64,000 nt of DNA, taken from Microbacterium terregens (GTDB lineage: Bacteria; Pseudomonadota; Alphaproteobacteria; Sphingomonadales; Sphingomonadaceae). This document shows, one piece after another, positions 41,447 to 51,417 of this stretch. Location of the stretch: NCBI RefSeq assembly GCF_027922045.1, contig NZ_BSEX01000018.1:1-64000 (forward strand), written 5' to 3'. Position numbers and translations under genes: made by a program. Positions within the stretch are counted from its first letter, which is position 1. Each line of letters opens with the position of its first letter. The notes below the pieces were generated by a model that did no database searches, was not told the origin of the DNA, and saw only the letters and a list, made by a program, of their open reading frames with translations.

Positions 41447-41496
41447 ATATGCGCGCACTATGCGAAAGCGGGGAATCGATCTCGAATTCCTACGCG
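41447..41496 (+). promoter_or_regulatory. Repeated control box, copy 1 (before the porin-kdp operon)
   Basis: Units ATATGCG (41447), CTATGCG (41458) and CTACGCG (41490) are spaced 11 and 32 bases apart. Between the second and third lies the conserved core AAAGC-N4-GAATCGATCTCGAA. The same layout occurs at 50378 and 51368. An 11-base direct repeat is what OmpR-family regulators such as KdpE bind. The box ends 68 bases before the porin ATG. Assignment to KdpE is inference. Confidence 0.7.
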
Positions 41497-41564
41497 GCGC
41501 GGACCTAATCCCCACGGCCTTGGCGCCCCGGCTGTCGGCGGTCGCCACACCCTTGGGGGCATGC

Positions 41565-42428
41565 ATGAACTATTTCCGCCGGGTCGCCGTCGTGGCCCTT
41601 CTTACGCTGCCGTGCGCTGCTCAGGCCCAGTCGGCCGGGGGCACGGAAGCGCCCGAAACGACACCGTCTGTCACCGTCAGCGGTTCGGCGGCGATCGCCT
41701 CCGACTATCGCTTCCGCGGCGTGTCGCAAACGGACCAGGAACTGGCGGTGCAGGGTGGCATCACCGTGGCCCACGACAGCGGCCTCTACGTCGGCCTTTG
41801 GGGTTCGAACCTCGCCGGTTGGGGCACCTTCGGCGGCGCCAACATGGAGCTCGACCTGATCGGCGGCTACAAAGCGCAGCTTTCCGACAGCGCAACGCTG
41901 GACGTGGGGCTCACCTGGTACCTGTATCCGGGCGGCGCCGACGAGACCGACTTCGCCGAGCCTTATGTCAAGCTGACCGGCACCACCGGCCCTGCGACCC
42001 TGACGGCGGGCGCCGCCTATGCGCCCAAGCAGCAGGCGATCGGCAAATGGTATGACGACGGCGCGGCGGCGGCAGCCGGGCTCTACGACCATCCGGGCGC
42101 CAAGGACGACAATCTCTACCTCTGGGGTGACGCGGCGGTCGCCCTTGCCGGCACTCCGGTGACCGCAAAGGCGCACATCGGCCACAGCTGGGGGCAGGAC
42201 GGGCTGGGCCCCAATGCCACTGCCGTCGCCCCGACCGGCGAATATTGGGACTGGTCGCTGGGCGCGGATGCGACCTGGCGCAACCTAACCTTCAACGTCT
42301 CGTACGTCGATACGGACATTTCTAGCCGCGAGGCCGGCTATCTGCGGCCGAGCTTCAGCAAGGGCCAGGACGGCACCGGCAACATCGCCGGCGGCACGGT
42401 CCTGGTCTCGCTGACCGCGGCCTTCTGA
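41565..42428 (+). CDS. TorF-family putative porin
   Basis: 287 residues. Signal peptide (FRRVAVVALLTLPCAAQAQ), then the family opening VTVSGSAAIASDYRFRGVSQTD, GLYVGLWGSN, and a beta-rich barrel ending in TAAF. It is placed in the outer membrane and may pass ions or small solutes. ATG 41565 is the natural start; the frame is open upstream through the control box and is not coding there. Only 13 bases separate it from the first small kdp ORF, so it heads the kdp operon. Confidence 0.85.
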   Translation: MNYFRRVAVVALLTLPCAAQAQSAGGTEAPETTPSVTVSGSAAIASDYRFRGVSQTDQELAVQGGITVAHDSGLYVGLWGSNLAGWGTFGGANMELDLIGGYKAQLSDSATLDVGLTWYLYPGGADETDFAEPYVKLTGTTGPATLTAGAAYAPKQQAIGKWYDDGAAAAAGLYDHPGAKDDNLYLWGDAAVALAGTPVTAKAHIGHSWGQDGLGPNATAVAPTGEYWDWSLGADATWRNLTFNVSYVDTDISSREAGYLRPSFSKGQDGTGNIAGGTVLVSLTAAF

Positions 42429-42441
42429 AGGAGACGGACCG

Positions 42442-42525
42442 ATGCAGGACCTGCTCTGGATCCTCGTCATGGTCGGGCTGCTGGCGGCGACGCTCGCCTA
42501 TGCCCGCCTGTGCGACCATGCGTGA
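42442..42525 (+). CDS. Tiny kdp-operon membrane protein upstream of kdpF
   Basis: 27 residues: one membrane helix (LLWILVMVGLLAATLAYA) then RLCDHA. Small ORFs with an A-R-x-C-D ending are known to me just ahead of kdpF in many GC-rich genomes, with no defined role. GGAG precedes ATG 42442. Probably a small transporter-associated peptide. Confidence 0.75.
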   Translation: MQDLLWILVMVGLLAATLAYARLCDHA

Positions 42526-42534
42526 GGTGACGCC

Positions 42535-42624
42535 ATGACGCTCGACCTCTGGCTCGCGGCGCTGACCGCGGTTGCCCTTCTCGTCTATCTGGTGGCGGTG
42601 CTGATCCGCCCCGAACGCTTCTAG
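42535..42624 (+). CDS. kdpF: K+-transporting ATPase subunit KdpF
   Basis: 29 residues forming a single helix and ending LIRPERF, the standard KdpF signature. It stabilises the KdpABC complex. It lies between the 27-residue ORF and kdpA, with GAAGGAGG after its stop serving kdpA. Confidence 0.9.
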   Translation: MTLDLWLAALTAVALLVYLVAVLIRPERF

Positions 42625-42638
42625 AAGGAGGCGGAACC

Positions 42639-49668: not shown

Positions 49669-50354
49669 TGGCCGCCAGAATCCTGATCGTGGACGACGAA
49701 GTCGCCATCCGCCGCCTGCTGCGCAATACGCTGGAGCGCGCGGGCTATGCCGTGGCGGAGGCAATGAACGGACGCGAGGCTCTGGTGCAGGCAACCGCAC
49801 ACGAGCCCGACGCCATCCTCCTCGACTTGGGACTGCCCGACCGCGACGGCCTCACCCTGATCCCGATGCTGCGCAAGCAGGCGAATGGCGTGATCCTGGT
49901 GGTGTCTGCACGCGAAGCGACGGAAGAGAAGGTGGCGGCGCTGGACCTTGGCGCCGACGACTATGTGACCAAGCCCTTCGACACCGACGAGTTGCTTGCC
50001 CGGCTGCGTGTCGCGCTGCGCCATCACGGCGGCTCCGGTGCGACGCCCAAGCTGGTGCGCCGCGGAGACATCACCATCGACCTCGACCAACGCCTCGTCT
50101 GCCGGGCCGGCGAGGAACTGCATCTGACCCGCAAGGAGCACGACGTGCTGGCGGTGCTCGCGCGCCACATCGGGCGGGTCGTCACGCACGAGCGCATCAT
50201 CGCCGCCGCCTGGAGCGGGGAAGAGGATCCGCGGGTGGAATATCTGAGGATCGTGATCCGCAATCTCCGCCAGAAGCTGGAGGCGCCCGGCCCCGTCGGG
50301 AGCGTGATCGCCAACGAACTCGGCGTCGGCTACCGGCTGCGGCCCGATAGCTAA
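49668..50354 (+). CDS. kdpE: Response regulator KdpE
   Basis: 228 residues: receiver domain with the phospho-aspartate in LLDLGLPDRDG, then an OmpR/PhoB-type winged helix with LTRKEHDVLAVLARHIGRVVTHE. It activates kdp transcription and binds tandem direct repeats. The repeated box starting 24 bases after its stop, and the two matching boxes, are the best candidates for its sites. Confidence 0.96.
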   Translation: MAARILIVDDEVAIRRLLRNTLERAGYAVAEAMNGREALVQATAHEPDAILLDLGLPDRDGLTLIPMLRKQANGVILVVSAREATEEKVAALDLGADDYVTKPFDTDELLARLRVALRHHGGSGATPKLVRRGDITIDLDQRLVCRAGEELHLTRKEHDVLAVLARHIGRVVTHERIIAAAWSGEEDPRVEYLRIVIRNLRQKLEAPGPVGSVIANELGVGYRLRPDS

Positions 50355-50377
50355 CGCTGGGCATCGGGAACGCCGCA

Positions 50378-50427
50378 CTATGGGCCCGCTATGCGAAAGC
50401 CTTGAATCGATCTCGAATTGCTATGCG
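50378..50427 (+). promoter_or_regulatory. Repeated control box, copy 2 (after kdpE)
   Basis: Units CTATGGG (50378), CTATGCG (50389) and CTATGCG (50421) show the same 11/32 spacing and core (AAAGC-N4-GAATCGATCTCGAA) as copies 1 and 3. It lies 38 bases before the first of two small membrane-protein genes, so these have their own promoter rather than relying on read-through from kdpE. Confidence 0.7.
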
Positions 50428-50465
50428 CCGGGGGATAGCTGGGCCGCCACAACGGGGAATGTGGC

Positions 50466-50885
50466 ATGCGCACGTGGCATCGGTCGTGGAAGGCGAGCAT
50501 CGGGCTTCGCGCCGTCGGAGTGGCCTTGTGCGGCCTTGCCTGGGCGGCAATCGCCAGGCTCGCGAGCTATCCGCCAACTGCCCCGGGCCTGATCCCGTAC
50601 CTGCTCGCCGGCCTCGGGGTGATTTCCGCGAGCGCGGGAGGCGCGCTGGCATTCCTGGGACCACGCCTGTTCACACCGGTGCGGGTCAGTGCGCGCTGGC
50701 GCCACAATCGCGCCGCCCCTTCTCGCCCCGCCGACGCATGGCACCACGCCCTGCTCCCGAACGCGAACGTCGTGCCGGAATTGCCGGACGCCTGGCTTAC
50801 GCCTGAACCCACGGCGGCGGCAGGGATGGCCTGGCACGGGGTCCGCTCAGGCGCGGGACAGGCCCTCGACAGGGCAAGGGCATGA
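50466..50885 (+). CDS. Small membrane protein of unknown function (K+ island)
   Basis: 139 residues. Two membrane helices (about 15-32 and 40-66) and a soluble tail rich in Ala, His, Trp and Pro. The stretch LLAGLGVISASAGGALAFLGPRLF resembles the second helix of the next protein, so the two may be paralogues. I do not recognise a family. ATG 50466; its stop overlaps the next start (ATGA). The upstream control box suggests expression under K+ limitation. Confidence 0.7.
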   Translation: MRTWHRSWKASIGLRAVGVALCGLAWAAIARLASYPPTAPGLIPYLLAGLGVISASAGGALAFLGPRLFTPVRVSARWRHNRAAPSRPADAWHHALLPNANVVPELPDAWLTPEPTAAAGMAWHGVRSGAGQALDRARA

Positions 50886-51274
50886 CCAATCTCACCGCAC
50901 GCCTTACAGGCGTCGTCTGCCTCGCGGCCGCCGCGGCAAGCACGCTCCTTCACCGCGCGATCTTCGTCGCGGCGCAAGGCGGCCCGGCACAGGCAGCCGA
51001 GTTCGCCACCGGGCTGCTCAGCTTTGTGCTCGCAAGTCTTGGCGTCCTGCTGCTGACGAACGGCGCCCGGTTGTTCGAGCGTCTGGAGCCGCCGGCCGCG
51101 AAGCCGACGGAGGTGCTCCCGGTTTCGGAGCCTGCCGGAATGGACGAGTCCGCCGCGTTCGACTCCCGCTATGGTGTCGCCCGGCTTCTGGCCGATCGCG
51201 CGATCCGGACGGCGTCGCTGCGGGAAGCGGCTCGTCACGCGTCCGATCCTGAGCCTCTCCACACACGTCGCTGA
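50882..51274 (+). CDS. Small membrane protein of unknown function (K+ island)
   Basis: 130 residues. Two membrane helices (about 8-30 and 42-62), then a polar tail with several arginines. LSFVLASLGVLLLTNGARLFERL parallels the preceding protein. Four-base overlap with it implies coupled translation. No family recognised; a small membrane partner of the Kdp system is a guess from position only. Confidence 0.68.
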   Translation: MTNLTARLTGVVCLAAAAASTLLHRAIFVAAQGGPAQAAEFATGLLSFVLASLGVLLLTNGARLFERLEPPAAKPTEVLPVSEPAGMDESAAFDSRYGVARLLADRAIRTASLREAARHASDPEPLHTRR

Positions 51275-51367
51275 CGCAGGCCCATGGCCGCGCTGTGGCC
51301 TGCTCTACAGAATAGCCGAATGCCCAACGGCAGTTCCAGGTCCGCGACTGGCGCCAGCGCTACGCCG

Positions 51368-51417
51368 CTATGCGGGCGCTATGCGAAAGCCGGGAAACGA
51401 TCTCGAAACGCTATGCG
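51368..51417 (+). promoter_or_regulatory. Repeated control box, copy 3
   Basis: The cleanest copy: CTATGCG at 51368, 51379 and 51411, again 11 and 32 bases apart, with the core AAAGC-N4-GAAACGATCTCGAA. It ends 60 bases before the next gene cluster (51478-53618). Confidence 0.72.

Follow-up and report, generated by a model that had tools for sequence, protein, structure and literature searches.

The first 64,000 nucleotides of contig NZ_BSEX01000018.1 (assembly GCF_027922045.1, recorded as Microbacterium terregens and placed by GTDB in the Sphingomonadaceae), hereafter the window, encode a Kdp potassium (K+) pump together with its sensor kinase KdpD and response regulator KdpE. Three similar 50-base boxes stand around this locus, one before a porin-kdpFABCDE operon, one before a pair of small genes (s1-s2) and one before a four-gene cluster (t1-t4), and the question they raise is what reads them and whether they tie the additional genes to the potassium response. 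The box is very probably a KdpE-controlled promoter unit driving a compact regulon, a reading drawn from sequence conservation, gene context and the way in which box spacing tracks the type of KdpE encoded. Such a unit would define, at the level of sequence, a KdpE regulon for a large family of bacteria, and would assign the uncharacterised families s1, s2 and t1-t4 to the response to K+ shortage.

The original prediction had placed three + strand boxes in the window, each with units at 0, +11 and +43, sharing a near-identical core and lying 38-68 bases before a gene; all of this was borne out, the positions by a matrix scan of the window. The units read ATATGCG, CTATGCG and CTACGCG in box 1, CTATGGG, CTATGCG and CTATGCG in box 2, and CTATGCG three times in box 3. 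The core GAA-T/A-CGATCTCGAA begins at +26 in all three, and the ends of boxes 1, 2 and 3 lie 68, 38 and 60 bases from the ATG codons at 41565, 50466 and 51478. A matrix built from the three boxes scored them at 80-82 bits, against 0.0 at the best other position in the window (in-sample values), and detected no fourth box there. A 50-base pattern allowing up to 3 mismatches recovered boxes 2 and 3 (0.00 expected from 100 shuffles) and missed box 1, which has more mismatches than 3. The unit pair alone (CTATGCG-N4-CTATGCG, 3 mismatches) was rejected as a motif, as its 11 matches against 6.8 expected were equalled in 14 of 100 shuffles and do not go beyond chance. The gene sets predicted behind the boxes also held, with Pfam supporting the TorF-type porin, KdpA, KdpC, KdpD, KdpE and the domains of KdpB, and with the two-gene s and four-gene t sets present. 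By Pfam, the window KdpE comprises receiver and winged-helix domains and is encoded with KdpD; its match to the NCBIfam KdpE model NF007820 (199.5 bits) lies under the cut-off of 325, and the name is used because of the operon context and because this is the best-matching model.

Eighty kdp loci, of 373, were taken with KdpA as query, nearly all of them from genomes named as sphingomonads. An iterated matrix identified 67 boxes in 55 of 81 loci, all on the operon strand, with the weakest accepted box at 41.8 and the next candidate at 8.5; the expectation that the box should recur near kdp in relatives is borne out in 54 of the 80 loci, where it stands before kdp or porin-kdp, the window being the 55th. 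In a column profile, the 55 first boxes are marked by an A-rich stretch (-14 to -10), by TATGC (0 and +11), by TCGATCTCGAATTGCTACG (+29 to +47) and by CCTAATCG (+57 to +64). The core TCTCGAA and a -10-like element at +24 from the core are conserved as strongly as the repeats. In three loci (L054, L078 and L103) the box is kept at kdp though no porin was recognised, and box 1 is present in the nearest relative, G001 (L032), whose kdp genes are 97-99% identical to those of the window. Locus L067, from a record named Bacillus sp. 2B10, is a Sphingomonas-type kdp locus with a box; the assembly is likely mislabelled or mixed.

A sequence-only model made from 83 aligned boxes was applied to the genomes of 50 box loci and to G001, and found matches in all 51. 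Among the 145 matches listed, 116 scored at least 32 bits and none fell between 32.0 and 20.7 bits; because many matches are training sequences, this bimodality and the gene context outweigh the scores themselves. Genomes with a box-less kdp locus gave a best match of 29.3 bits in the 23 of 26 searched (L095, L097 and L104 left out). Gene classes were assigned to 122 distinct boxes scoring above 25, drawn from the window, L032, the 80 kdp loci and 44 further loci (L143-L162 and L203-L226, with L227-L235 left out), by taking the first recognised gene within 450 bases of the box. Unlinked boxes were taken by position and not by gene, except for four stretches (L159-L162) taken for their KdpE. 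The first gene was the porin for 55 boxes (one of them, in L148, with a porin and no kdp), s1 for 25, t1 for 22, kdpD for 5, t2 for 2 (t operons without t1), kdpA for 1 and kdpDE, by way of a short kdpC match, for 1 (L153), leaving 11 with none. These 11 include three before kdp at 480-2083 bases with no recognised porin, five before t operons with a diverged t1, recognised by t3 (L144, L145, L155, L211 and L223), and a box at 17719 in L110 that precedes an s1-like gene, s1 there being found with wider queries. In all, 120 of 122 boxes precede kdp, porin, kdpDE or the s and t operons on the correct strand, and a random intragenic placement is not what is seen. One strong match outside the 122 lies in locus L186, which holds porin and kdpA. 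A second boxed kdp locus was noted in L152, L222 and L186, and a second s/t cluster in L210.

The placement is also constant in distance: from box start to start codon there are 86-93 bases at s1 (25/25), 108-113 at t1 (20/22) and 114-128 at the porin (51/55), the outliers being probably wrong start codons picked by rule. Isolated kdpDE genes have a box of their own in six stretches (L153, 57 bits; L159, 41; L161, 34; L162, 31; L220, 32.5; L224, 38.3), and in several genomes s1 and t1 are remote from kdp and are boxed there too. Because the box accompanies them even away from the pump, the s and t gene groups are probably part of the pump's K+-shortage response. The proposed regulon reaching well beyond the pump can be kept in that the s and t operons are boxed, and has to be scaled down to a compact one, as each of the 51 genomes holds 1-8 clear boxes.

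The same model was applied to 298 genomes of the family not selected for kdp, with a model match defined at E<=1e-5 under strict filters and a KdpA match at E<=1e-100. Matches were found in 17 genomes (23 matches) and KdpA in 78, all 17 falling within the 78; the 220 family genomes without kdpA gave no match to the box model. Fourteen matches stand before kdp, four before s1 behind kdpE and three before t1, while that in L245 lies behind kdpE with no s1 match and that in L250 lies ~6 kilobases (kb) behind kdpE and is unassigned to class. A loose pattern (3 mismatches) had matched 46 of the 298 genomes, most of its 3-mismatch matches looking like chance, and the profile was used instead.

The presence and spacing of the box track the type of KdpE. 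Identity to the window KdpE is 72.2-79.8% in 45 of 45 loci that have a box of the window's spacing (gap 0) and a KdpE in the stretch, and 53.4-61.7% in the 26 box-less loci. Nine box loci had no KdpE in the stretch; in the seven of their genomes searched (L048 and L064 left out), a KdpE of 72-77% identity was encoded elsewhere in six. By eye, the loci with divergent KdpE carry the same elements with one extra base between unit 2 and the core, and a two-block scan gave 16 sites above 20 bits in 13 of these 26 loci, all at gap +1, with no such site at seven other gaps and none in reversed sequence. In the box loci the scan gave 67 sites at gap 0, with sidelobes of 24 and 30 sites at gaps -2 and +2. 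At 17 bits, 20 sites of the longer version were listed, before kdpA, porin, s1 or t1. To read the 26 loci as simply lacking a box was therefore wrong, since 13 of them have the longer version. The original prediction of "the KdpE box of sphingomonads" is right in that a box goes with kdp and the regulon genes; no single box serves all sphingomonads, since the exact spacing belongs to one KdpE type and the other has a one-base-longer version in half of its loci. Three loci (L040, L059 and L075) combine a KdpA of 89-91% identity with a KdpE of 58-62% and have gap +1, and three others (L101, L103 and L110) combine a KdpA of 83-86% with a KdpE of 76-79% and have gap 0; because KdpA and KdpE identity are split in these loci, the box can be said to follow KdpE rather than KdpA. 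In L097 and L107 all three units, judged by eye, have shifted jointly to TAATGC-like forms, suggesting a single reader for the three. Two KdpE types with spacing shifted by exactly one base amount to a natural experiment on the co-evolution of an OmpR-family regulator and its promoter. In L112, two boxes of the longer version (17743 and 17995) lie 252 bases apart with one s1 gene downstream.

The recognition helix was considered as the divider of the two KdpE types and failed. The motif YLR-x6-R is present in 72 of 72 aligned KdpE sequences, the window having YLRIVIRNLR, and the variant YLRIVVRNLR is common to both types (13/46 gap-0 and 7/26 divergent sequences). The two arginines seven residues apart presumably correspond to R193 and R200 of Escherichia coli KdpE.

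In the proposed mechanism, KdpE phosphorylated when K+ shortage is sensed via KdpD would bind units 1 and 2, spaced by 11 bases, and would activate a promoter whose -10-like element and core (TCTCGAA) keep fixed distances; unit 3 (+43), between the core and the -10-like element, is probably read by KdpE too. The box would in this way drive porin-kdpFABC(DE), stand-alone kdpDE, the s1-s2 operon and the t1-t4 operon. The Pho box is likewise made of direct-repeat half-sites, of another sequence, and the present box is distinguished by its kdp gene context and by following KdpE type. Direct-repeat half-sites are described as general for tandem OmpR-family sites in PMC3264566. According to the same source, E. 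coli KdpE occupies TTTATA and TTTACA, 6-base direct repeats with a 5-base gap and thus an 11-base period, with a footprint of -72 to -50. In the sphingomonad box, two direct half-sites likewise repeat every 11 bases and precede kdpFABC on the coding strand; with a predicted transcription start seven bases after the -10-like element these would sit at about -69 to -52. Its half-site is CTATGC/ATATGC and not the AT-rich E. coli sequence, making it a KdpE box of its own type, and it adds a third unit 32 bases on, a conserved core and a -10-like element. PMC7657598 describes kdp as the sole target operon of E. coli KdpE and adds adeP, uxaA and uxaC; because essentially one target locus is described there, the sphingomonad regulon, with several target operons, appears larger in operons and is still small. 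In Caulobacter, another alphaproteobacterium, the kdp operon has a structured 5' untranslated region and a suspected KdpDE promoter for K+ limitation that PMC8552747 describes as yet to be identified, a likeness by description. No sphingomonad KdpE box was found in the literature by titles and the beginnings of abstracts, subscription papers and preprints being outside the scope of that search.

It is unlikely that the box is mainly a promoter for a dedicated sigma factor, or for another regulator tracking K+ or osmotic stress, of which KdpE reads little or nothing. The core and the -10-like element, as conserved as the repeats, do recur where KdpE is of the other type, the two types have largely the same recognition helix, and the Caulobacter kdp operon also has a promoter for the extracytoplasmic function sigma factor SigT (PMC8552747). 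Such a reader would, however, have to account for an 11-base direct repeat that is the signature of OmpR/KdpE regulators, for a spacing that follows KdpE identity, for the joint change of three units in L097 and L107 and for the lack of matches in the 220 kdpA-less genomes. Less probable again is the view that the s and t operons are mere neighbours of kdp, their box duplicated along with the locus and without a functional tie: boxes 2 and 3 of the window do adjoin kdpE, and G001 is without them, but these operons retain the box in many genomes where they lie far from kdp, and their relatives bear the longer version at loci whose KdpE is of the other type. The presence of three copies within 10 kb, and of up to eight per genome, might also recall a small mobile or spreading repeat that landed near kdp by chance. 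We give this hardly any credence, as it is largely contradicted by a placement that keeps strand and distance to orthologous genes in nearly every case, by the divergence of copies within a genome, whose -10-like elements are class-specific, and again by the lack of any match in the 220 kdpA-less genomes.

Several findings count against KdpE control as the full account of the box. The half-site CTATGC is not the TTTATA of E. coli, and neither the core nor the -10-like element is a canonical sigma-70 sequence, so that part of the box may have another reader. The one-base shift is not explained by the recognition helix, as the helix does not separate the types. Locus L056 has a gap-0 box with a KdpE of only 64% identity, and 13 of the 26 divergent loci show no longer version above 20 bits. 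As to breadth, 61 of the 78 kdpA-bearing genomes of the unselected sample have no match to the gap-0 model (under strict filters, and with a model that does not include the longer version), and the five genus-mates of G001 in that sample give none either. G001 itself has none of s1-t4 in its 19-kb kdp stretch and no second box genome-wide. Finally, two of the 122 boxes (L219 and L226) stand before unrelated genes.

The transcripts that would start at the boxes have leaders predicted to fold into hairpins. Compared with dinucleotide shuffles, folding energies had a mean z of -2.51 for porin leaders (n=48), -2.61 for s1 (n=22) and -2.13 for t1 (n=18, first 33 bases), with coding controls at 0.08 to 0.20; these sets derive from 55, 25 and 22 leaders after removal of identical leaders and odd start distances. 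At t1, 99.0% of alignment cells are paired and 8 cells have changed on both sides, with none of 500 shuffles reaching both values and 12 of 500 as high for pairs with both sides changed; these and the following shuffles ignore relatedness among the sequences. The porin stem is paired in 73.5% of cells with 27 changed on both sides (0/500 as high; covariation 1/500), the number of changed pairs (56/500) and the pair types (120/500) being less distinct in an alignment that misplaces part of the outer stem. The s1 stem is weak, with 80.3% paired and 29 to 76 of 500 shuffles as high. By eye, the GGGG ahead of the porin start codon is often taken up in the stem, and s1 leaders have a purine-rich stretch in the loop. 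Leaders at loci of the other KdpE type had a mean z of -1.64 (18 of 19 leaders, all but that of L090), several near 0, some having been wrongly cut to end at a small open reading frame (ORF) before kdpF. No Rfam match was found over 41300-52000 at E up to 1. The hairpins may act in translation or stability; the Caulobacter kdp mRNA is described as having a structured leader and RhlE-dependent stability (PMC8552747).

Relatives of t1 (84) and s1 (38) in the databases are unnamed or hypothetical, the named ones being Sphingomonas. Two t1 relatives are labelled DUF2188 by a source, and no DUF2188 Pfam match was found at E up to 1 in the two t1 relatives scanned; a fold search with the t1 model gave no match at E<=0.001. 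Profile comparison gave a probability of 91.6% for a relation between s2 and t3, a weak 49.0% for s1 with s2 and no more than 18.0% for s1 with t3. The t4 orthologue of L154 is diaminopimelate-decarboxylase-like (3vab at 376 bits), with both Pfam domains and the pyridoxal-phosphate (PLP) lysine motif present. In the window, t4 has an intact frame but neither the AVKAN PLP-lysine motif nor a match to the C-terminal domain, and has probably ceased to be a decarboxylase. A more ambitious picture, possible and still doubtful, is a modular cassette for a two-layer response to K+, transcriptional and RNA-based, in which a specialised core promoter is combined with three KdpE half-sites and with a hairpin leader that at the pump folds on the ribosome-binding site. 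Its effectors would be small membrane proteins with two spans, which could modulate K+ transporters, and a methyltransferase with a decarboxylase that might together produce an organic cation replacing K+, the latter role of the t operon being speculation.

Table 1. Boxes, promoter elements, predicted leader hairpins and genes of the kdp locus in the window.
Feature	Position	Strand	Remarks
Box 1	41447..41496	+	before porin-kdp operon; units 41447-41453, 41458-41464, 41490-41496
Box 1 core GAATCGATCTCGAA	41473-41486	+	
-10-like CCTAAT of box 1	41504..41509	+	fixed offset +57; near invariant in first boxes; putative function
Leader hairpin, porin-kdp	41511..41557	+	predicted; CCCC pairs with GGGG before start codon
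Porin	41565..42428	+	TorF-family, putative; PF09694 / TIGR02001
KdpF-like ORF	42535..42624	+	29 amino acids (aa); named by eye and position, not by family search
KdpA	42639..44342	+	PF03814
KdpB	44330..46390	+	start not refined; PF00122 (E1-E2 ATPase) and PF00702 (HAD); between kdpA and kdpC
KdpC	46403..46978	+	PF02669
KdpD	46978..49668	+	sensor kinase; Pfam
KdpE	49668..50354	+	response regulator, proposed reader of boxes; Pfam; best NCBIfam model NF007820 KdpE
Box 2	50378..50427	+	units 50378-50384, 50389-50395, 50421-50427; core 50404-50417
-10-like GATAGCT after box 2	50434-50440	+	
Leader hairpin, s1	50446..50465	+	predicted; GCCACA..TGTGGC, directly before s1 start codon
s1	50466..50885	+	small protein; two hydrophobic stretches (by eye); no Pfam family
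s2	50882..51274	+	small protein; two hydrophobic stretches (by eye); no Pfam family
Box 3	51368..51417	+	units 51368-51374, 51379-51385, 51411-51417; core 51394-51407
-10-like CGTAGAT after box 3	51424-51430	+	
Leader hairpin, t1	51432..51458	+	predicted
t1	51478..51741	+	87 aa; predicted strand-strand-strand-helix-strand, mean pLDDT (predicted local distance difference test) 83
t2	51753..52268	+	S-adenosylmethionine (SAM)-methyltransferase-like
t3	52265..52531	+	small protein; two hydrophobic stretches (by eye); profile-related to s2
t4	52539..53618	+	diaminopimelate-decarboxylase-like; without PLP-lysine motif that relatives keep

Some further features of these loci were noted. Between the porin and kdpF, a 27-aa ORF (MQDLLWILVMVGLLAATLAYARLCDHA) at 42442-42525 putatively encodes a further membrane peptide conserved in the kdp operon, an ORF of similar start (MQDL..W) and length preceding kdpF in many relatives. 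In L036 (17848-18381) and L217 (5258-5797), the s1 gene runs on into a t1-like domain (GRDxDGxWTVRESAGxxLGRF). The s1 and t1 operons of L147 stand back to back, their own divergent boxes (6173-6318) overlapping or nearly touching. The box-like sites of L219 (5818, 45 bits) and L226 (5401, 43 bits), which are related genomes, precede by eye a cluster with a glutamyl-tRNA-synthetase-like gene.

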